A model generated the notes under the pieces. The model was not told where the DNA came from. It worked only from the letters and a program-made list of their open reading frames with translations, and searched no databases. 44,268 nt of DNA from a virus. Location: positions 1-44,268 of the IMG/VR virus record IMGVR_UViG_3300042486_000369. One strand, written 5' to 3'. Both the position numbers and the translations under genes were made by a program. Shown here in pieces: positions 2,515-18,560 of the stretch (its first letter is position 1; every line of letters starts with the position of its first letter).

Positions 2515-3072
2515 ATGAGCAATGGTAACGAAGACAGCCGCCTGAAAAAAGCAGCGGACTTTGACGTAGTCGGTCGCCGCGACACGCGCAGACAGGAGGA
2601 CCGTTTGGTCACCGATGTCCGCGAAGTCAGCGAGGATGATCGCTTGGAGATGTTCCGAAACCAACTTTTTAACGATGCACTCCCTGACCTGCCGGACATT
2701 CCGGGCTATCATGTGTGCTGGCTCACCACCACCAATTCCCGCGATCCTATCCACCGTCGCACGCAGCTCGGCTACGAGCCTATCCGCGCCGATGAGATAC
2801 CGGGAATGGAGTATTCCTCCCTGAAGACCGGCGAATGGGCCGGTATGGTCGGGGTAAACGAAATGGTCGCGTTTAAGCTGCCCTTGAGCCTCTATGAGCG
2901 CTTCATGCAGGAAGCTCACCACAACGCCCCGTTGCGCGAGGAACAGAAGTTGGCCGATGTTGCGGATATGCTCCGTGAACAGGCCCACAGAGCCGGTAGC
3001 GTATTGATCGAAGGTGACGGAAATCAGGACATGCACTCGTCCCACACGCCGCAAAGGGGCATCTTCTCCTGA
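2515..3072 (+). CDS. Capsid-region protein of unknown function, 185 aa
   Basis: A 185-residue soluble protein between the scaffold-like and decoration-like genes, with AAGGAG before ATG 2515. The middle region (IPGYHVCWLTTTNSRDPIHR, followed by LGYEPIRADEIPG and KTGEWAGMVGVNEMVAFKLP) reads as a compact alpha/beta domain, flanked by charged helices. Proteins with this kind of core occur next to the capsid gene in several podoviruses, usually annotated only as hypothetical or minor capsid proteins. There are no transmembrane segments and no nuclease or protease motif. Confidence 0.6.
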   Translation: MSNGNEDSRLKKAADFDVVGRRDTRRQEDRLVTDVREVSEDDRLEMFRNQLFNDALPDLPDIPGYHVCWLTTTNSRDPIHRRTQLGYEPIRADEIPGMEYSSLKTGEWAGMVGVNEMVAFKLPLSLYERFMQEAHHNAPLREEQKLADVADMLREQAHRAGSVLIEGDGNQDMHSSHTPQRGIFS

Positions 3073-3102
3073 CGCGGTAACCGCAACTCAATTTTGAGGT
3101 AA

Positions 3103-3669
3103 ATGGACATGAGCACTGTATCTCAGCCGTTTGGCCTTCGCCCTTCGTATTCGCCCAGCGGGACTGTCCGTCCCATGGCGTACACGATTGCGTCTGCCTA
3201 CGGCGTCAATATCCTGCAGAACCAGCCGGTTCGCATCGCCACTGACGGCAACATCGAAGCTGCAGCCATCGGCACACGCTTCATCGGCACCTTCCAAGGC
3301 GTCGAGTTCACCGACAGCGACGGTCGCCGCCGCGTCAGCAACAAGTGGACGGCATCGACCGTCGCCACCGAAATCGTGGCCTATGTCACCCTCGACCCGA
3401 CCATCGTTTACGAAATTCAGGCCAACGGCCCGATCGCAGTAACCGACATCGGCAAGCAGGCTGACTACACCGCCATCACCGCAGGCTCGACCGTCACCGG
3501 TCTGTCGGCTTTGATGCTGGACACCGCGACGCTGACCGACACCGGCAACGCCGCACTGCGTATCATCGACCTGTCACCCGCACCGGACAATGCGTTCGGT
3601 GATAACTTCACGATCGTTCAAGTTCAGATTTCTGAGCACCAGAACGTCGCTGACCGCGCCGCTTACTAA
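3103..3669 (+). CDS. Probable head decoration or minor capsid protein
   Basis: A 188-residue beta-rich protein that begins with FGLRPSYSPSG and has short Thr/Ala/Val strands throughout, with no charged coiled coil. Its position just before the major capsid gene is that of a head decoration or minor head protein in related genomes. There are two in-frame ATG codons (3103 and 3109). GAGGT at 3095-3099 lies close to the first and at a normal distance from the second, so 3109 is also possible. Function is inferred from context and fold type. Confidence 0.6.
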   Translation: MDMSTVSQPFGLRPSYSPSGTVRPMAYTIASAYGVNILQNQPVRIATDGNIEAAAIGTRFIGTFQGVEFTDSDGRRRVSNKWTASTVATEIVAYVTLDPTIVYEIQANGPIAVTDIGKQADYTAITAGSTVTGLSALMLDTATLTDTGNAALRIIDLSPAPDNAFGDNFTIVQVQISEHQNVADRAAY

Positions 3670-10798: not shown

Positions 10799-12487
10799 AT
10801 GACTGCGTACACCTTCAGCCAGCTTTTCGACTTCACCCGCACCACTGCGGGTACGTTCGTCGGTAGCAACGGCCTCATCCAGAACACGCCCGCAAGTGTG
10901 AATTTGCTGACGTTCACGCAGGAGTTCGATAACGCGGCTTGGGGCAAATCGGAAGTGACTGTCGCAGCAAATGCAACGATTGCACCTGACGGCACAGCTA
11001 CCGCAGATAAGCTAGTTGAGAGTACGGCAAACTCGCTTCATACCCTTATCAGAAACATAACAACCACAGCGGTTCCATACACTTGGTCGTGCTACATTAA
11101 GGCGGGGGAGCGCACGTTTGCGTTTCTGTATCACTTAGAAAGCAATGCCGCTGTTTCTATTAACCTTTTGACGGGCGCAACTGGAACGCCGTCAGGCACT
11201 GTCGCGCCAACAGCAACTACCGTGACGAACGCTGGTAACGGCTGGTATCGCCTCACTATGACAGCGACCGCAACTGCGGCGTCTAATAGTTTTCGGGTTT
11301 ACACCGCCACAAGCCTTACAAGCAGCGGTGTTTACACAGGCGACGGCACGTCCGGCATCTTCCTCTGGGGCGCACAGCTAGAAGCTGGATCCGCTGCGAC
11401 CGAGTACACCCGCAACAACGGCGGCCTGTTCCCCGCCCGCTTTGACTATGACCCAGTCACACTGGCCCCTAGGGGCATCCTGATCGAAGAGCAGCGGACA
11501 AATTTGATGCTGCGGTCAGAGGAGTTTGATAACGCATCTTGGACTAAACTCGGGGCGACCATAACTGCTAATGTTGCCCCATCACCTGACGGCACGCTGG
11601 GTGCCGACGCCTTGGTAGAAGATACCAGCACCGGCGCGCATGTCGTGTTCCAGCCTATTTCGTTTGTTTCTGGAACGACTTACACAGCCACCGTGTTTGC
11701 AAAGGCTGGGACACGAACGCGCCTTAATATCGTCTGCGTAACGGGCGCTATTTTTAATGGCGATTTCGACTTAACTAACGGGACGATCATAGGCACCTAT
11801 AGCGGGACGTCGTCTATCACACCAGCCGGGGACGGGTGGTATCGATGCCAGATGACCGCTACGGCTGGGGCGACCGCAAGCGGCAACGTGCAGTTCCGTT
11901 TGATTAGCAGCGGCACGACTACATCTTATACCGGCGACGGGACTAGCAGGCTGTTCCTGTGGGGCGCGCAGACGGAAGCCGGTGCCTTCGCCACCAGCTA
12001 CATCCCGACAGTGGCCAGCCAAGTTACCCGCTCGGCGGACATATGCAACCTCACTGCGCCGATGTTTACGCCTTGGTATAATACCAATGAGGGCACCTTT
12101 GTTGTGGAGGCCGACACCTCTTTCGTCGGGAACTTCCCTGTGGTGGTAGGCTATTCCGCAGCCAGCACGGCCTCGTTCCTTTACGTCACGTCTGGCGGTA
12201 AGATCGGCACTTGGAATGGAACTACCGCATTGGATGCGGTTGCGGGCGCTACGACAACGAACAATGCGGTGTTCAAGGCCGCAAACGCTTATGCTGCGTC
12301 TAGCCGCAATGTTTCTATGAACGGCGCGGCGGTCGCATCCGACGCAAATGCTATCGGCTCCGCCTCGTTTATCGCACTGGGTAAACCGGGCCTTAACACG
12401 TCGCAGATGCTCAACGGCCACATCCGCCGCATCACCTACTACCCCTTCCGTGCATCCAACAACCAACTCCAACAGGTAACGACATGA
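10799..12487 (+). CDS. Fibre/adhesin protein 3
   Basis: A 562-residue third member of the tandem set, starting at ATG 10799 three bases after the previous stop. The start (TFSQLFDFTRTTAGTFVGSN) matches the start of fibre 2 in design. Two beta-sandwich modules follow, with IAPDGTATADKL and SPDGTLGADAL loops and FLWGAQLEAG / FLWGAQTEAG ends, separated by the RFDYDPVTLAPRG linker. The C-terminal lectin-like domain ends HIRRITYYPFRASNNQLQQ. Function is inferred as for fibres 1 and 2: binding of surface polysaccharide. Its stop overlaps the next start (ATGA). Confidence 0.7.
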   Translation: MTAYTFSQLFDFTRTTAGTFVGSNGLIQNTPASVNLLTFTQEFDNAAWGKSEVTVAANATIAPDGTATADKLVESTANSLHTLIRNITTTAVPYTWSCYIKAGERTFAFLYHLESNAAVSINLLTGATGTPSGTVAPTATTVTNAGNGWYRLTMTATATAASNSFRVYTATSLTSSGVYTGDGTSGIFLWGAQLEAGSAATEYTRNNGGLFPARFDYDPVTLAPRGILIEEQRTNLMLRSEEFDNASWTKLGATITANVAPSPDGTLGADALVEDTSTGAHVVFQPISFVSGTTYTATVFAKAGTRTRLNIVCVTGAIFNGDFDLTNGTIIGTYSGTSSITPAGDGWYRCQMTATAGATASGNVQFRLISSGTTTSYTGDGTSRLFLWGAQTEAGAFATSYIPTVASQVTRSADICNLTAPMFTPWYNTNEGTFVVEADTSFVGNFPVVVGYSAASTASFLYVTSGGKIGTWNGTTALDAVAGATTTNNAVFKAANAYAASSRNVSMNGAAVASDANAIGSASFIALGKPGLNTSQMLNGHIRRITYYPFRASNNQLQQVTT

Positions 12488-12780
12488 CCGACTATTGCTT
12501 GAAGAACGCCGACGAAGACGAGTTCAACCAGCTCATGCTGGACACCGGCCTGTGCGTGGAAGTCACCGAGGGCAAAGGCAAGGCAGCGGTCACGACCGTC
12601 GTGCCTGCCGACTACACGGTCCTGATCGACCGCATCGGGCCGATCACCATCGGGGAGACTACCTACCCCGAATATTACACCAACCTGCGCCTGCTGTTCG
12701 AACCGACTGAGGAGCAGACGGCAGAGCTGACGCCATTCGTCATCGACCCCAGCCAGCCGCACTACCGGACGTGGGCATGA
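12484..12780 (+). CDS. Small phage protein after the fibre genes, 98 aa
   Basis: A 98-residue acidic protein that overlaps the end of fibre 3 by four bases (ATGA). It has an N-terminal MTDYCLKNADEDEFNQLM and a central beta region with ADYTVLIDRIGPITIGE, and ends HYRTWA. Proteins of this size and place after fibre genes can be fibre assembly factors. No motif confirms that here, and I do not recognise the family. Confidence 0.5.
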   Translation: MTDYCLKNADEDEFNQLMLDTGLCVEVTEGKGKAAVTTVVPADYTVLIDRIGPITIGETTYPEYYTNLRLLFEPTEEQTAELTPFVIDPSQPHYRTWA

Positions 12781-12824
12781 CCGACCTCGCGGTAAAACGC
12801 GCCAAGGGCGGCGCACGCGGATGA
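12777..12824 (+). CDS. Very short ORF (15 aa), possibly a remnant cut by the HNH insertion
   Basis: ATG 12777 overlaps the previous stop (ATGA) and encodes MTDLAVKRAKGGARG before TGA 12822-12824, which overlaps the start of the HNH gene at 12821. The Lys/Arg/Gly composition matches the small basic genes just downstream of the HNH gene. It may be the beginning of a gene that the HNH insertion truncated, or chance. Confidence 0.25.
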   Translation: MTDLAVKRAKGGARG

Positions 12825-13372
12825 GCAAACCCGCGCCTTTCACCGACGATACGCGATCCTGCAAGTTTTGTACTAAGTGCGGAGAGGCGCGCCCGATCGC
12901 GCAATTTCACACCACAGGGCAGAAGGTTTCTGGCGAGCCCAAGTACAATTCTTGGTGCAAAACGTGCATAGCAGCCAAGCAGGCTGAGTACCACAAACGT
13001 ACTTGGGGCCCCGACAAACTGCAACACTCTGCTTTTAAGCGCACAAAAAGCGTCCGATCATATCTGGCGTACTTGCGGTGCAAAGCTGTAGCACGCAAAA
13101 AAGGTCTTGAAGTCGCCAGCGTGGATGCGTTGGAAGTTCTTTGGCCTGTGCAACAGGGTAGATGCGCTCTGACTGGGTGGGACATGACCATGGAACTCGG
13201 AAAGGGGTCGGTTCCTACCAACTGCAGCATTGACCGCATAAATTCCAAACTCGGGTACGAAGTTGGGAATGTGCAGCTTGTTTGCCGCGCAGCTAATGTG
13301 GCAAAGAGCGATCTGTCTTTGAGTGATTTTTTACTGCTGTGCCGCTCGGTAGTGGAGGCTAACGATGTCTGA
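12821..13372 (+). CDS. Homing endonuclease, HNH type with N-terminal zinc finger
   Basis: A 183-residue protein. Cys pairs near the N-terminus (CKFCTKCGEARP and WCKTC) form a zinc-binding region. The C-terminal half has the pattern C-x-LTG followed by CSIDRINSKLGYEVGNVQLV and the Asn-rich stretch CRAANVAKSDLS, which is a degenerate HNH/beta-beta-alpha-metal core of the type found in phage endonucleases. It is inserted between small late genes, overlaps the previous mini-ORF by four bases and the next gene by eight, and is more AT-rich than its neighbours, all of which suit a mobile gene. Its target site is unknown. Confidence 0.75.
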   Translation: MSKPAPFTDDTRSCKFCTKCGEARPIAQFHTTGQKVSGEPKYNSWCKTCIAAKQAEYHKRTWGPDKLQHSAFKRTKSVRSYLAYLRCKAVARKKGLEVASVDALEVLWPVQQGRCALTGWDMTMELGKGSVPTNCSIDRINSKLGYEVGNVQLVCRAANVAKSDLSLSDFLLLCRSVVEANDV

Positions 13373-13631
13373 TTATAAAACACCGGCTTGGATGCGCGTT
13401 GAAGGTAAATCAAAATCTGGCGGCCTCAATGCCAAAGGCCGCGCCTCGCTGCGCGCTCAGGGGCACGACATCAAGCCGCCCGTCAGCGCCAAGCAGGCGA
13501 AGAAGTCACCCAAGGCTGCGGCACGGCGCAAGTCATTTTGCGCAAGAATGACAGGGATGCCGGGGCCGATGAAGGACGACAAAGGCAGGCCGACGCGCAA
13601 GGCGCTGTCGCTGCGCAAGTGGGACTGTTGA
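13365..13631 (+). CDS. Small basic phage protein, 88 aa
   Basis: An 88-residue strongly basic protein with a Gly/Lys-rich start (GKSKSGGLNAKGRASL), a Lys-rich middle and a C-terminal segment with ARMTGMPGPMKDDKGRPTRK, ending LSLRKWDC. I have seen this C-terminal pattern in several uncharacterised phage proteins. The start lies inside the end of the HNH gene with GGAGG upstream. Composition suggests nucleic acid binding or packing with DNA in the virion. That is inference only. Confidence 0.6.
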   Translation: MSDYKTPAWMRVEGKSKSGGLNAKGRASLRAQGHDIKPPVSAKQAKKSPKAAARRKSFCARMTGMPGPMKDDKGRPTRKALSLRKWDC

Positions 13632-13632
13632 C

Positions 13633-13800
13633 ATGAAGAAACTCGCCGTCTGGGACAAGAAGCGACCAAAGGATCTGGGCAAGCCCAAGGATCTCTCCGT
13701 CAAGCGTAAGGCCGCCGCGAAGCGTCGCGCAGCCGCCGCAGGGCGACCCTATCCAAATTTCGTCGATAACGTGGCTGCGGCCCGCAAGAAAGGTAAGTGA
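13633..13800 (+). CDS. Small basic protein, 55 aa
   Basis: ATG 13633 follows the previous stop by one base. The product starts MKKLAVWDKKRPKDLGKP, continues with a Lys/Arg/Ala-rich helix, and ends RPYPNFVDNVAAARKKGK before TGA 13798-13800. It lies in a run of three basic genes in the same direction, with the next start two bases after its stop. It contains no motif I recognise. Confidence 0.6.
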   Translation: MKKLAVWDKKRPKDLGKPKDLSVKRKAAAKRRAAAAGRPYPNFVDNVAAARKKGK

Positions 13801-13801
13801 C

Positions 13802-14266
13802 ATGGACGGTTTCAAAGACAGCACCAAAACCCAGTACGCCACGGGCGGAGCCGCCTACGCCAAGGGCGGCAAGGCCAAGGGCGCGGCAAAGATCTCCAAG
13901 GTAATGGGCGAGTTCAAGCGCGGCGAGCTGCACAGCGGCTCGAAGAAGGGCCCCGAGGTGACCAACCCCAAGCAGGCCATCGCGATCGCCATGAGCGAGG
14001 CTGGCAAGAAGCCCATGAAGAAGGCCCGTGGTGGCATGGTCGAGGAAGGCATCTCGACCCGCCCCGTCGACAGCAAGGGCCGTCGCATGCGCATGGACAC
14101 CGTGCCCGTCGACAACAGCCCGCCGCCCATGAAGAAGGGCATCGGCGTGGTTGACGCGATGATCATGGCTGCCAAGCGCGCAGGCAAGTCCGTGCCCGTG
14201 CACAACAGCACGCCACGCATCCAGCGCAGGGCCTCGGGCGGCCTCGCCTGCATGCCCAAGAAATAA
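13802..14266 (+). CDS. DUF6496-like basic protein
   Basis: A 154-residue basic protein. Its middle contains KVMGEFKRGELHSGSKKGP followed by TNPKQAIAIAMSEAGKK, the hallmark of the DUF6496 family of unknown function found in phages and bacteria. It is flanked by Gly/Lys/Ala-rich segments (YATGGAAYAKGGKAKGAA and ARGGM). The C-terminus ends RRASGGLACMPKK. It is the last gene before a strong hairpin and closes the cluster of basic genes. A role in binding or condensing DNA is plausible from charge but not demonstrated. Confidence 0.65.
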   Translation: MDGFKDSTKTQYATGGAAYAKGGKAKGAAKISKVMGEFKRGELHSGSKKGPEVTNPKQAIAIAMSEAGKKPMKKARGGMVEEGISTRPVDSKGRRMRMDTVPVDNSPPPMKKGIGVVDAMIMAAKRAGKSVPVHNSTPRIQRRASGGLACMPKK

Positions 14267-14273
14267 ACAGGGG

Positions 14274-14310
14274 ACAGCGCAGACGCTTGCCGTAGAGGCG
14301 TCTGCGCTGT
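14274..14310 (+). terminator. Strong 13-bp hairpin after the basic gene cluster
   Basis: ACAGCGCAGACGC (14274-14286) and GCGTCTGCGCTGT (14298-14310) are perfect inverted repeats around an 11-base loop. No T-run follows, so termination would need other help, or the hairpin may stabilise the upstream message. A promoter-like sequence starts inside its loop. Confidence 0.55.
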
Positions 14311-14315
14311 ATACT
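14287..14315 (+). promoter_or_regulatory. Sigma70-type promoter overlapping the hairpin
   Basis: TTGCCG (14287-14292) and TATACT (14310-14315) are separated by exactly 17 bases, with four of six matches at -35 and five of six at -10. The predicted start near 14322 would transcribe the HNH gene at 14380 and the adaptor-like gene after it. The -35 is in the loop and the first base of the -10 is in the 3' arm of the hairpin. Confidence 0.55.
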
Positions 14316-14379
14316 CCGCACGCCAGAGATGACTGCCCGCCATGGCAGGCTGCTGCGCTAACCGAGCGAGCATGACACT

Positions 14380-14397
14380 ATGGCCTATTCCGGCACC
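14380..14397 (+). repeat. 18-bp duplication of the start of the gene at 15036
   Basis: The first six codons of the HNH gene (14380-14397) match the first six codons of the following structural gene (15036-15053) at 17 of 18 bases. Both encode MAYSGT, after which the two proteins are unrelated. This indicates that the HNH gene sits just after an original start codon and that the structural gene restarts at a second copy. Confidence 0.85.
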
Positions 14398-15036
14398 CGA
14401 TCAGAAGCTAAAACGAAGGGGGAGCACCTGTACTTTACAGGTGTGCCGTGTAAACGCGGCCATGTGGCTACGCGCTTCACCCGCACCGCTATCTGCACGG
14501 ACTGCAACAGGGAACAAACGTGGTTGTGGGCCCAAGCAAACAAAGACAAAAAGCGGAAAGCTGACGCCGATTACCGCAAAAACAACTCGGAAGCACGGCG
14601 CGCCAAGGACCGCGAATACCACCAAACCAACAGGGAAGTCATCCTCGTTAAAAAGCGGGAGTACTTCGCGCGGACCGCAGAGGCGAGACACGCAACGTCT
14701 AAGCTGTGGCGAGAGGCGAACCCTGAAAAAATGCGGGCTGCCCAAAAACGCTTTCGCGAAGCTAATCCACATAAAATAAATGCGTGGGCTGCATTGCGCA
14801 GGTCGCGGAAGAAGCAAGCCAAGCGGATGCTGCAGCCTGAGCAGTTAGACCAAATGCAAGCCCTGTACGCGGAAGCCCGTCGGCTCACTGAGACGACCGG
14901 TATTCGGCATGAGGTCGACCACATCTACCCATTGGTCGGGCCGAACTTCAGCGGCCTTCACGTTCCGTGGAACTTGCAAATCCTTACGTCGGACGCGAAT
15001 AAACGTAAGGGTAACAAATTTGAGGGGGTTGTGTAA
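14380..15036 (+). CDS. Homing endonuclease, HNH type, with borrowed N-terminus
   Basis: A 218-residue protein. After MAYSGT it has the phage HNH N-terminal module (HLYFTGVPCKRGHVATRF, then CTDCNREQ, two Cys pairs for zinc), a long Lys/Arg/Ala-rich helix (about 50-150), and a C-terminal HNH core: RHEVDHIYPLVG, FSGLHVPWNLQILT, ANKRKGNKF. The His-Asp-His, the Asn of WNLQ and the Asn/Lys of ANKRKGN are the expected catalytic and metal-binding residues. The first six residues duplicate the start of the next protein and do not look like part of the HNH family. The stop overlaps the next start as TAATG. Confidence 0.85.
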   Translation: MAYSGTRSEAKTKGEHLYFTGVPCKRGHVATRFTRTAICTDCNREQTWLWAQANKDKKRKADADYRKNNSEARRAKDREYHQTNREVILVKKREYFARTAEARHATSKLWREANPEKMRAAQKRFREANPHKINAWAALRRSRKKQAKRMLQPEQLDQMQALYAEARRLTETTGIRHEVDHIYPLVGPNFSGLHVPWNLQILTSDANKRKGNKFEGVV

Positions 15037-16022
15037 TGGCCTACTCCGGCACCGTGTCGCGGACTGTCTTTAACACCCGCAAGATTATTGAAAACTCAGC
15101 GCGCAGATGCAAGCTGCCTGCGCAGTCCCTCACGCCTGAGCATGTCGACATCGCCAACGACCAGCTATTCATGCTGCTGTCGGATCTGGCCAATCGCGGC
15201 ATCCAGCTCTGGTGCATCGAGAAGCAGATATACCCCCTCTACACCGGCGTCGCTGACGTCGTGCTGGACATCGGCACGGTCGACGTGCTGAACAGCAACC
15301 TGCGCACGATGCAGGAAGTCACCGGCACCAACAGCAGCACGGCCACCGCGCGCACCACCATCTTCCCCAGCGCGACGATCGTGGCCACCGTAGGCATTCG
15401 CTGGTCCGGCGCATCGGTGCCGGTCGCCCTTGAGCGCAGCAATGACGGCATCGCGTGGACTACCGTCCAGACGGAGACACCCTCAGCAACGGCAGGTGAG
15501 TGGACTTGGTTCGATCTCGACAGCGTTGTGGCCGCCCCCTACTTCCGCGTGCGGGCCACCAGCGGCAACCTAAATTTCGACCGCATCTATCTGGCAAATA
15601 CGCCGACCGAGATACCCTTGGCGCGTCTCAACCGCGACGACTACACCAACCTCCCGAACAAGACATTCCTGTCGAACCGACCGCTCCAATACTGGTTTGA
15701 CCGTCAGGTCCAGCGCCCAGTCATGCACCTCTGGCCGGTGCCCAATGATCAGGCCGAGGTCTACCAGATCGTCCTGTGGCGTCAGCGCTACATCATGGAC
15801 GTCGGCAGCATGACGCAGGAGGTCGAGGTTCCGCAGCGCTGGTATGAGGCGATCGTGGCCATGCTCGCCGCGCGCCTCGCCATGGAGTATATCGAGGTAG
15901 ACGCCAACATGATCGGCCTGCTCGACGCGAAGGCCAAGGAGAGCCTGTACTTCGCGCAGCAAGAAGAGCGCGACAACAGCCCGATGGTCATCCTGCCCGA
16001 CATCGCCATGTACACTCGGTGA
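15036..16022 (+). CDS. Adaptor-like tail/neck protein with inserted beta-sandwich
   Basis: A 328-residue protein. The N-terminal helices (about 1-80) and C-terminal part (about 190-328), with LQYWFDRQVQRPVMHLWPVP and EVPQRWYEAIVAMLAARLA, resemble the adaptor/tubular proteins that sit under the portal in P22 gp4- and T7 gp11-like systems. Between them (about 90-185) lies a beta-sandwich domain with VALERSNDGIAWTTVQTE and WTWFDLDSVVAAPYFRVRA, similar to discoidin/F5-8-type binding folds. The start has a good ribosome-binding site (GAGGGGG) inside the preceding HNH gene. The head-tail joining role is inferred from these resemblances. Confidence 0.6.
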   Translation: MAYSGTVSRTVFNTRKIIENSARRCKLPAQSLTPEHVDIANDQLFMLLSDLANRGIQLWCIEKQIYPLYTGVADVVLDIGTVDVLNSNLRTMQEVTGTNSSTATARTTIFPSATIVATVGIRWSGASVPVALERSNDGIAWTTVQTETPSATAGEWTWFDLDSVVAAPYFRVRATSGNLNFDRIYLANTPTEIPLARLNRDDYTNLPNKTFLSNRPLQYWFDRQVQRPVMHLWPVPNDQAEVYQIVLWRQRYIMDVGSMTQEVEVPQRWYEAIVAMLAARLAMEYIEVDANMIGLLDAKAKESLYFAQQEERDNSPMVILPDIAMYTR

Positions 16023-16026
16023 GCCC

Positions 16027-16344
16027 ATGCCGGTCTTCCTCAACACTCGCGGCAACCCCACCCTCGGCATAGGGATCTGCGGCCGGTGCAGTAGGAAATT
16101 TCCTCTGCACAAGCTGTACTCGGATCCCAACTATCCGGGGCTGCGCGTCTGCGAGGCGGACATGGACCAGTTCGATCCCTACCGCCTGCCCGCGCGGCAG
16201 CCCGAGAAGATCACCCTGCCTTTCGTGCGGCCTGACGGCCCGATCGCGACCAACCCAGACGGCTTCATATCGGAGGACGAGAACACCTTCGTCATCACTG
16301 AAGACGGCGATGATTTCATAGTTTTCCAAGGGGATGATAACTAA
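16027..16344 (+). CDS. Small zinc-ribbon-like virion-region protein, 105 aa
   Basis: A 105-residue protein whose N-terminal half has a CGRC pair (about residues 18-21) followed by FPLHKLYSDPNYPGLRVC and EADMDQFDPYRLPARQ. The Cys pair plus later Cys/Asp suggest a small zinc-ribbon fold. The C-terminal half is acidic and ends FIVFQGDDN. Proteins with the same core occur next to adaptor genes in other podoviruses and are probably minor structural proteins. The stop overlaps the next start (TAATG). Confidence 0.55.
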   Translation: MPVFLNTRGNPTLGIGICGRCSRKFPLHKLYSDPNYPGLRVCEADMDQFDPYRLPARQPEKITLPFVRPDGPIATNPDGFISEDENTFVITEDGDDFIVFQGDDN

Positions 16345-18560
16345 TGTCGGTGCCCTCAAATCTTATTCCGACCACGATAACGCAACTGCCCGAATACACT
16401 GGCTCAGGCACTGGGGGCTACATGCCCTACGTCATCGATGGCCGCACGTATAAGGTGCTGTTCAGCAATATCGCCTCCGTCGGTGCGGTGCCCGCGTCGC
16501 GCATAATCGCGGCAGGCACTGGCCTTACAGGCGGTGGCAGCCTCGCCGCCGACCGAGTGATCGCCATCGCCAATGGCGGCGTGGGCTTCGACCAACTGGC
16601 CGCCTCGGGCGCGACTGCGGGCACCTACGGCTCAGGCACCACTGTCCCAGTCCTCACGGTCGACGTGAAGGGGCGCGTCACTGCAGCCACCACCACGCCC
16701 GTCGTGATCAGCGGCTATGTGCCCGAGGGGCGTTCAGTTATCGCGGGCACCGGCCTCACCGGCGGCGGCACCCTCACCAGCAACGTAACACTCGCGGTTA
16801 ACTTCGCGAGTAGCGACCCTCAAGCTCTCGGCACCGCCACGGCGGGCGTCTCGACTGCTGCTGCACGCGGAGACCATGTTCACCCAGCCGTGAACCTCTC
16901 CGACACGAGCCAAACCCAAGGCGCGCTCCCCTTGGGTCGCGGCGGCACCGGCGATGCGCTTTCCCCAGTAGCCGGTGCCGTCGTATACTCGACCGGCACG
17001 CGTTTCGCTCTCTCCGCCCTCGGCCTGCCCGGTCAGGTGCTGGTGTCCAACGGGACCAGCGCCCCGTCGTGGCTGACTGTCAGCGGCGTCGGCACGGTCA
17101 CCAGCGTCAATGTCAGTGGCGGCACAACCGGCCTGACCTTCACTGGCGGCCCGATCACCAGCGCCGGTACGATCACAGCCGGTGGCACGTTGGGCGTTGC
17201 TAACGGCGGCACGGGCACAGGCACGGCCTTCACCTCGGGATCCTTGGTCTTTGCTGGCTCGGGTGGCGTGTACTCGCAGAACAACGCGAACCTGTTTTGG
17301 GACAATATCAATAGCCGGTTGGGCATTGGCACCGGCAGCCCCCTCGCACGGCTGCACCTGTTTGACACCTTGGCACCCGAGGCTAGGTTACAAATCGGCA
17401 CGAACACCAGCCAAGGTGCGTACACTTTCTATACCGGCGGGGTTAACGAGGGTGGGATAGGCTTCACGCCTGTATCCTCAATCCTGAACGTATACGCGGG
17501 ACGGTCTGCGGCGTGGGGCGGCAAGATAACCTTCACAACCGACACCGCCGAGCGGATGCGCATCCTTAACACCGGTGAGGTGTGCGTAGGTCGCACAAAC
17601 TCACTAAACACTGGGGTGCTTTCCGTCCTTGGTACAGGCACGCAGGCGATTACCGCGCAAGTCACTGTCGATGGCAATTCGCTTATTCAAGGGTATAACT
17701 CATCCACCGGATTGGCCTTCCAAATTCTCGGGACTGGGCAGGGGTATTACGCAGGCAACCTTGGTATTGGCACCACCTCACCGGCGGCGCGCATACACAC
17801 CAACGGAGGCGCGGGCGGTATAAACGCCGTTCTCGAAAGCAACACTTCCGCCGACACACGCGTTGAGTTCCGCAACAACGCAACAAGGGCTGGGTACCTA
17901 TATTGGGACGCGAATGAAGTGCGTCTTCTCGCTGATCCTACGCGTGCTGTTACGTTGTTCACTAACGGCGTCGAGCGCATGCGCGTCGACAACGCAGGCA
18001 ACGTCGGGGTCGGCACGACACCTAGCGCTTGGAATAGCTCGTACCGCGCCATTGAAATTGGCAACACTGTGGGCCTTACGCGAGGCGGTGCCGCAGAAAT
18101 GGACCTCCTTTGGAATGCGTTTGTAAACTCCTCCGCGCAGTATGTGTACCGCGTTACCGCCGCCGCCACTCGATACCAACAGACCACCGGCGAACATATT
18201 TGGTCTACGGCGGTGTCAGGCACAGCGGGCGCTACGATCAGTTTCTCTGAGCGCATGCGTATCAATAACGCAGGCGCTGTTGTCTTACCGAAAATGAACC
18301 TGAGCACCGACACGCCGTTCCTCACTGGCGCGAATATAAACTCAGGCGCAAACCCACTCGCCATAGGCACCACAAGCACCGGCGTCGTAGCCCTATTCAC
18401 GAACACCACTGAGCGCCTGCGCGTCAAGGCCAACGGCCAAGTCCGCTTCGTGCCGCTCGCCGCTGCGCCGGGCAGCCCCGAGGCGGGCGACGTGTACTAC
18501 GACAGCACGACCAACAAACTTCGGTGCTACAACGGCACCATATGGAATGATCTTTTCTAA
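16344..18560 (+). CDS. Tail fibre protein with repeated beta modules
   Basis: A 738-residue protein. The N-terminal third has repeats of the GTGLTGGGSL and VDVKGRVTAA type that build trimeric beta-fibre shafts. A cassette with VTSVNVSGGTTGLTFTGGP and LGVANGGTGT is shared with the large fibre at 22136. The C-terminal half has several ERMRV-NAGNVGVGTTPSA-type units, and the protein ends NKLRCYNGTIWNDLF. This is the usual architecture of long fibres that carry receptor binding near the C-terminus. No intramolecular chaperone domain is evident. The start overlaps the previous stop (TAATG). Confidence 0.75.
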   Translation: MSVPSNLIPTTITQLPEYTGSGTGGYMPYVIDGRTYKVLFSNIASVGAVPASRIIAAGTGLTGGGSLAADRVIAIANGGVGFDQLAASGATAGTYGSGTTVPVLTVDVKGRVTAATTTPVVISGYVPEGRSVIAGTGLTGGGTLTSNVTLAVNFASSDPQALGTATAGVSTAAARGDHVHPAVNLSDTSQTQGALPLGRGGTGDALSPVAGAVVYSTGTRFALSALGLPGQVLVSNGTSAPSWLTVSGVGTVTSVNVSGGTTGLTFTGGPITSAGTITAGGTLGVANGGTGTGTAFTSGSLVFAGSGGVYSQNNANLFWDNINSRLGIGTGSPLARLHLFDTLAPEARLQIGTNTSQGAYTFYTGGVNEGGIGFTPVSSILNVYAGRSAAWGGKITFTTDTAERMRILNTGEVCVGRTNSLNTGVLSVLGTGTQAITAQVTVDGNSLIQGYNSSTGLAFQILGTGQGYYAGNLGIGTTSPAARIHTNGGAGGINAVLESNTSADTRVEFRNNATRAGYLYWDANEVRLLADPTRAVTLFTNGVERMRVDNAGNVGVGTTPSAWNSSYRAIEIGNTVGLTRGGAAEMDLLWNAFVNSSAQYVYRVTAAATRYQQTTGEHIWSTAVSGTAGATISFSERMRINNAGAVVLPKMNLSTDTPFLTGANINSGANPLAIGTTSTGVVALFTNTTERLRVKANGQVRFVPLAAAPGSPEAGDVYYDSTTNKLRCYNGTIWNDLF

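Follow-up and report, generated by a model that had tools for sequence, protein, structure and literature searches.

An HNH gene and an adaptor gene with a shared start

Why does a gene for an HNH endonuclease begin with almost the same bases as the adaptor gene that follows it? The question arises from a virus contig in IMG/VR that is 44,268 bases long and is called, over its whole length, the window below; all features located in it lie on the plus strand. The HNH gene (14380–15036) encodes 218 amino acids with an N-terminal CxxxH..CxxC motif and a C-terminal HNH motif. The adaptor gene (15036–16022) encodes 328 amino acids, which share 64% identity with the protein of the Caulobacter phages RW (gp76), GB2A, RLK, and KcrB and 31%–36% identity with proteins annotated as tail adaptors.

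The HNH start reads ATGGCCTATTCCGGCACC followed by CGA, the adaptor start reads ATGGCCTACTCCGGCACC followed by GTG, and 17 of these 18 bases are the same, both stretches encoding MAYSGT. We compared all 81,003 pairs of the 403 ATG starts on both strands that open at least 60 codons each. Here, we found that the 14380/15036 pair was the best and the only one with 17 identical bases, while an identity of 16/18 was reached by four pairs. These data confirm the shared start reported in the first-pass annotation. Its placement of the adaptor's ribosome-binding site inside the HNH gene was also borne out, since the motif GAGGGGG was located at 15022–15028. The stop codon of the HNH gene and the start codon of the adaptor gene overlap in TAATG (15034–15038). 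Positions 14380–14397 are referred to as the captured adaptor codons 1–6, which now form the HNH start, and positions 15036–15053 as the re-created codons 1–6. Codon 6 (T) is compatible with an origin in either gene.

The empty site in HNH-free relatives

Relatives of the adaptor gene were collected by a scan of IMG/VR, in which 80 loci were kept from 600 stretches, and all frequencies at this site apply among the matches listed. The comparison of starts left out four of the 80 loci (L064, L069, L072, and L085), in which the match starts beyond residue 1. Among the matches listed, one of the 80 loci (L011) has an HNH gene belonging to the four types that the search covered, and the HNH-free adaptor loci of close relatives of the window had an empty site. 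In HNH-free relatives of the MA(Y/F)S group, a leader of some 70 bases is conserved directly 5′ of the adaptor ATG (54 loci, from which 41 distinct leaders were aligned). The same leader stands in the window 5′ of the HNH ATG, and its best matches are those of L028 and L029 (80% over 81 bases).

Upstream of the HNH gene, we located a promoter-like site (TTGCCG-17-TATACT, 14287–14315), which is the putative original promoter of the adaptor gene. By consensus match alone it scored 9/12, with one such site found compared with 0.4 in shuffled sequences, and the position of its TATA element is constant across the leaders of the relatives. The leader itself (14316–14379) aligns with the 41 distinct HNH-free leaders and contains conserved hairpins at about 14332–14372. 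Its consensus fold comprises 10 base pairs; for five of these, at least one sequence has both partners changed. With an invariant GCTG core, the leader is structured and conserved across dozens of phages, and it perhaps serves translational control.

The shared leader, TATA element, and hairpin region place the HNH gene between the expression signals of the adaptor gene and the adaptor body. Since the leader adjoins the adaptor start in HNH-free relatives, the HNH gene lies behind codon 6 of the adaptor gene, whose promoter, leader, and start it uses. The first-pass annotation had proposed this insertion point and the use of the original promoter and start, and the HNH-free relatives support it: their adaptor start directly follows the leader that is found 5′ of 14380 in the window.

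A second carrier with a replaced adaptor start

Among the matches listed, L011 is the sole other carrier of an HNH gene at the adaptor site, and its HNH protein shares 77% identity with that of the window. The ribosome-binding site at the same place reads GAGGAGG. The L011 HNH gene starts with ATGGCGTTTTCTAACACG followed by CGATCAG, which encodes MAFSNT followed by R instead of MAYSGT, and the junction is the same as in the window. The adaptor start of L011 is ATGGCTTACAGCAATACTGTATCG (MAYSNTVS). In the stretch formed by the leader and HNH bases 1–17, 100 of 107 positions agree with the HNH-free sisters L035, L036, L037, and L016.

When the L011 adaptor gene was compared with that of L035, 47 of 72 bases were identical in positions 1–72, but 189 of 198 in positions 73–270 (Fisher p = 1e-9). 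Among codons for the same amino acid, synonymous change in codons 2–24 amounted to 0.78 between L011 and its sisters versus 0.25 within the sisters; for codons 25–85, the corresponding values were 0.12 and 0.15. Thus, flanking target sequence was converted together with the insertion, bases 1–72 being foreign and the later bases native. This pattern indicates that the HNH gene has taken the native start into its service and that about 24 codons at the beginning of the adaptor gene are foreign or recoded. Accordingly, the cassette consists of an HNH body that lacks its own start and a foreign or recoded replacement start for the target. The foreign tract may have been imported from a diverged phage instead of being recoded for immunity. 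As a further point against the insertion and homing proposed below, two loci, the window and L011, carry this HNH gene at the adaptor site among the matches listed, and no donor was found there.

In the HNH-free sister L017, adaptor bases 46–72 (codons 16–24) resemble L011 best of 55 alleles (22/27). This resemblance to the foreign tract is weak and may be a scar left when the endonuclease gene was gained and lost.

The adaptor gene of the window was compared with that of L009, its nearest relative by adaptor protein. Here, 55 of 72 bases agreed in positions 1–72 and 171 of 198 thereafter (p = 0.06). A replaced tract is therefore possibly visible in the window, though weakly: the difference has the expected direction and is not significant alone. 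Codons 7–24 (15054–15107), which were possibly replaced with the cassette, contain GTG at codon 7, CGG at codon 9, and other codons that are rare or unique among the 59 HNH-free alleles. Among the matches listed, one of these 59 alleles has GTG at codon 7; none has CGG (R) at codon 9, where 53 have CAG. Codons 1–6 of the window are near-identical in the HNH and adaptor starts and have not been recoded.

The N-terminus of the HNH family

Phage homologues of the HNH protein are conserved from about T6/R7 onward, with the pattern (T/S)R.EA....YFTG.PC..GH, and the N-termini before this point vary in length and sequence. In the predicted structure (mean pLDDT 91, pTM 0.45), the first helix begins at residue 7. 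Both observations were counted in favor of a junction at codon 6. According to the first-pass annotation, MAYSGT lies outside the HNH family pattern, and this statement needs qualification. None of the 90 other homologues examined starts with MAYSGT, so the motif was not met there away from an adaptor gene. However, 12 of these 90 begin with sequences such as MDYPTTR or MEYPKTR, and Y3, T6, and R7 agree with this subgroup. Judged from these M(D/E)YPxTR relatives, some of MAYSGT might go back to older HNH sequence.

A second HNH gene and the DUF6321 gene

The window holds a second endonuclease gene, HNH-1 (12821–13372), which is endonuclease VII-like (phrog_1035/3322). Its target, the DUF6321 gene, lies at 13365–13631 (Pfam PF19846, E = 1e-24). 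Directly 5′ of HNH-1 we located a remnant of the original DUF6321 start (12777–12824), which was cut off by HNH-1 and comprises 15 codons (MTDLAVKRAKGGARG followed by a stop codon). Its first 39 bases agree at 33 positions with the intact DUF6321 start of L009. The replacement start brought with HNH-1 (MSDYKTPAWMRVEGKSKS, 13365–13418) has no match in L009, and the match resumes at 13419. No flanking repeat was found around HNH-1 in the window (score 10), and the case is counted because the remnant matches L009, not because of a repeat.

A DUF6321 gene lies directly 3′ of the HNH-1 family gene at all 31 loci inspected, that is, in the window and in 30 relatives with 59%–73% identity. The DUF6321 start was recognized by pattern at 29 of these loci and by eye at L290 and L291; the listing of HNH-1 genes omitted L294, which is partial. 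Stubs of the target start stand 5′ of the HNH gene at nine of the 31 loci (the window, L274–L278, L284, L292, and L293). When the N-termini of the HNH-1 family were compared with the start of the next gene, 44 of 132 positions agreed versus 33.4 after shuffling, and 84 of 10,000 shuffles reached 44. Among cultured phages, nine records carry a member of the HNH-1 family (32%–36% identity). Taken together, the remnant, the new start, and the constant neighborhood uphold the earlier statement that this genome contains a second case.

Other loci with the same arrangement

We applied an ungapped test for flanking repeats to 91 HNH loci and compared the scores with those of 400 shuffled pairs, the maximum of which was 14. 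Scores above this value were obtained for L145 (39), L141 (17), L155 and L158 (16 each), the window (16), and L172 (15). L011 scored 12 because its two starts are different alleles.

At L145, the HNH gene stands after 23 codons of its target, and leader and start share 94.7% identity over 170 bases with the HNH-free locus L184. The full downstream gene differs in its first 75 bases. In codons 15–19, the downstream codons occur in at most two of 38 HNH-free alleles, and those of the upstream stub occur in 30–35 of them. The stub carries the CTAGTACCCGCTGGCACAGCCTTTGAGTGGGAT stretch, and the recoded downstream copy, which encodes LVPAGTAFEWD, has rare third positions. None of 79 other loci of this target gene carries such an HNH gene. 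L145 is an independent replicate. The proposal that a duplicated start restores the adaptor gene is supported with two refinements: in L011 and L145 the restored start is not a plain copy, being foreign or synonymously recoded, and in L011 the swap extends to about codon 24.

In L141, the HNH reading frame runs without interruption through an N-terminal duplicate of the beginning of the gene that follows (QNRS.AVMQ.R.EPHD). The search for relatives of this target gene returned the locus itself and one match of 29%, and no empty site was retrieved. At L155 (about 2688–3222) and L158 (about 2973–3510), 16 bases are repeated where the gene after the HNH gene begins; by eye, the product of that gene resembles a small zinc-binding nuclease-like protein. 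L172 looked chance-like on reading and was not counted. L142 and L138 seemed suggestive (MAD is shared in L138) but were not supported.

Proposed mechanism and alternative explanations

At the level of sequence, these comparisons establish the architecture, the empty site, the junction at codon 6, the replaced 5′ tract of L011, and the analogues at HNH-1/DUF6321 and L145; cleavage, homing, and protection by sequence divergence are what we infer from them. We consider it probable that a free-standing HNH homing endonuclease gene was inserted after adaptor codon 6, that it borrows the adaptor start, and that it carries a replacement start. Lacking a start of its own, the HNH gene would be transcribed from the adaptor promoter with the adaptor leader and translated from the adaptor ATG, by which MAYSGT would be added to its N-terminus. 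The 3′ end of the cassette would supply a ribosome-binding site and a replacement adaptor start that differs from the uncut allele. This start would restore the target protein, and the endonuclease would presumably be unable to cut its own genome. During co-infection, the enzyme would cut an HNH-free adaptor start near the junction. Repair would use homology of the leader on the left and of the gene body on the right and would install the HNH gene together with the divergent start, the divergence of which would protect it from being cut again. Expression would carry no cost in signals: the HNH gene would use the native leader and the target the ribosome-binding site in the HNH end, with stop-start coupling.

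Alternatively, a single ancient illegitimate recombination might have joined the HNH gene to a duplicated adaptor start, followed by inheritance and ordinary phage recombination without homing. One capture would suffice for the same codon-6 junction in both carriers, recombination in the leader could have supplied L011 with its local leader, and homing activity is deduced from sequence comparison. However, the foreign segment of L011 consists of the HNH gene plus 72 adaptor bases with native sequence on both sides, as expected for repair of a cut, and the same 5′ arrangement recurs where HNH genes adjoin unrelated genes. We therefore regard this scenario as unlikely.

Two other explanations carry far less weight. 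MAYSGT might derive from an HNH family motif (M-x-Y-x-x-T-R) and resemble the adaptor start by convergence; the 12 homologues with M(D/E)YPxTR-like starts would fit this idea, but the 17/18 identity is at the level of bases, the HNH gene of L011 starts with MAFSNT in the codons of its own sisters and behind their leader, and an adaptor leader stands 5′ of the HNH start. Such a convergence is very improbable. It is hardly conceivable that the HNH gene lies inside a self-splicing intron or an intein of the adaptor gene. Phage HNH genes are often found in introns, as described in the available part of PMC3984707, but here the HNH gene is followed by a complete adaptor frame that has a start and a ribosome-binding site of its own. 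No self-splicing intron, as a group I intron-encoded endonuclease would have, was found, and positions 12000–16500 gave no Rfam match even at an E-value of 1.

Beyond the adaptor gene, the free-standing homing reading can be extended. We lean slightly toward a general phage class of 5′-end HNH homing endonucleases, with several lineages that each act on the first codons of one gene, either taking over its start or leaving a decapitated stub, and that supply a divergent, cut-resistant replacement start. These would be natural home-and-rescue drives in virion and other genes.

Relation to known systems

The closest known counterparts are the mORFs of fungal mitochondria, which the available part of PMC3630166 describes for atp6, atp9, cox2, and nad3 of Glomus sp. 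and atp6 of Allomyces macrogynus. There, the endonuclease ORF brings a foreign, mostly synonymously different gene piece that replaces the native terminus, and the native piece persists as a duplicate. As in these systems, the endonuclease ORFs at L011, L145, and HNH-1/DUF6321 carry a foreign target piece in place of the native one. However, in the excerpts at hand mORFs encode LAGLIDADG or GIY-YIG enzymes and replace the 3′ end (C-terminus), whereas the phage cases involve HNH enzymes and the 5′ end. Unlike the mORFs described there, the phage HNH gene also takes over the start and leader of its target, and its host genome is that of a phage.

The free-standing seg/mob endonuclease genes of T4-type phages are promoterless, depend on promoters of the phage, and provide the gene that follows with expression signals; in the case of mobE, the overlap with the preceding gene reads TAATGA (PMC2988022, available part). 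Borrowed promoters and signals for the downstream gene are thus shared with the HNH gene, but the accessible text describes seg/mob genes between genes, without a captured start or a replaced 5′ coding end. F-CphI is a free-standing phage homing endonuclease with an endonuclease VII motif, and HNH-1 and HNH-2 both match a PHROG named endonuclease VII. According to the portion of PMC6083498 at hand, F-CphI owes its protection to an intron that lies in the target (collaborative homing), whereas protection of the phage HNH gene would come from the replaced gene start. HomeR, a synthetic home-and-rescue drive of Drosophila, is inserted in the essential gene that it cuts and carries the rescue (PMC7968924, in excerpt). 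The likeness is an analogy of logic, since HomeR is engineered and CRISPR-based. In the available parts of PMC10448857 and PMC12724721, nothing resembling an endonuclease that captures 5′ gene ends was found, and the literature, which was covered in part, yielded no report of phage endonuclease genes capturing or replacing 5′ gene ends. The 3′-end replacement by fungal mORFs is the mirror image of the putative 5′-end replacement by phage HNH genes.

With a borrowed start and a replacement given in return, a selfish endonuclease needs neither an intron nor an intein to occupy a gene that is presumably essential, and the fate of the element is tied to its target gene. The arrangement would explain the patchy 5′ divergence of phage virion genes and offers a natural parallel to rescue-type gene drives. 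The predicted cut site of each enzyme is its junction, by which uncharacterized HNH families become directly testable.

Properties of the HNH protein

The HNH protein of the window matched phrog_1035 (E = 3e-23); its match to the Pfam HNH family (E = 0.027) lay below the cut-off. D180, H181, N198, and N207 are invariant in an alignment of 30 sequences, and a beta-beta-alpha fold is predicted for the C-terminus (strands 177–181 and 199–203, helix 204–210), so both motif and fold of an HNH nuclease are present. Solved HNH domains gave weak structural matches (best Z 4.5 over 63 residues), and searches of the PDB with the HNH profile or the model yielded no strong match. NCBIfam gave no match for the five proteins given, and a scan of the genome contigs with the HNH alignment returned 51 pattern matches, none of which was confirmed. 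Homologues in the Xanthomonas phages FoX5 (MT161384.1) and FoX3 (MT161383.1), handled here as H1 and H22, are apparently annotated as glycolate dehydrogenase, which is probably a misannotation. Unannotated HNH genes were seen just 5′ of tail protein genes in Shewanella phage SppYZU01 (L093, 1501–2019) and Escherichia phage ep3 (L097, 1501–2172).
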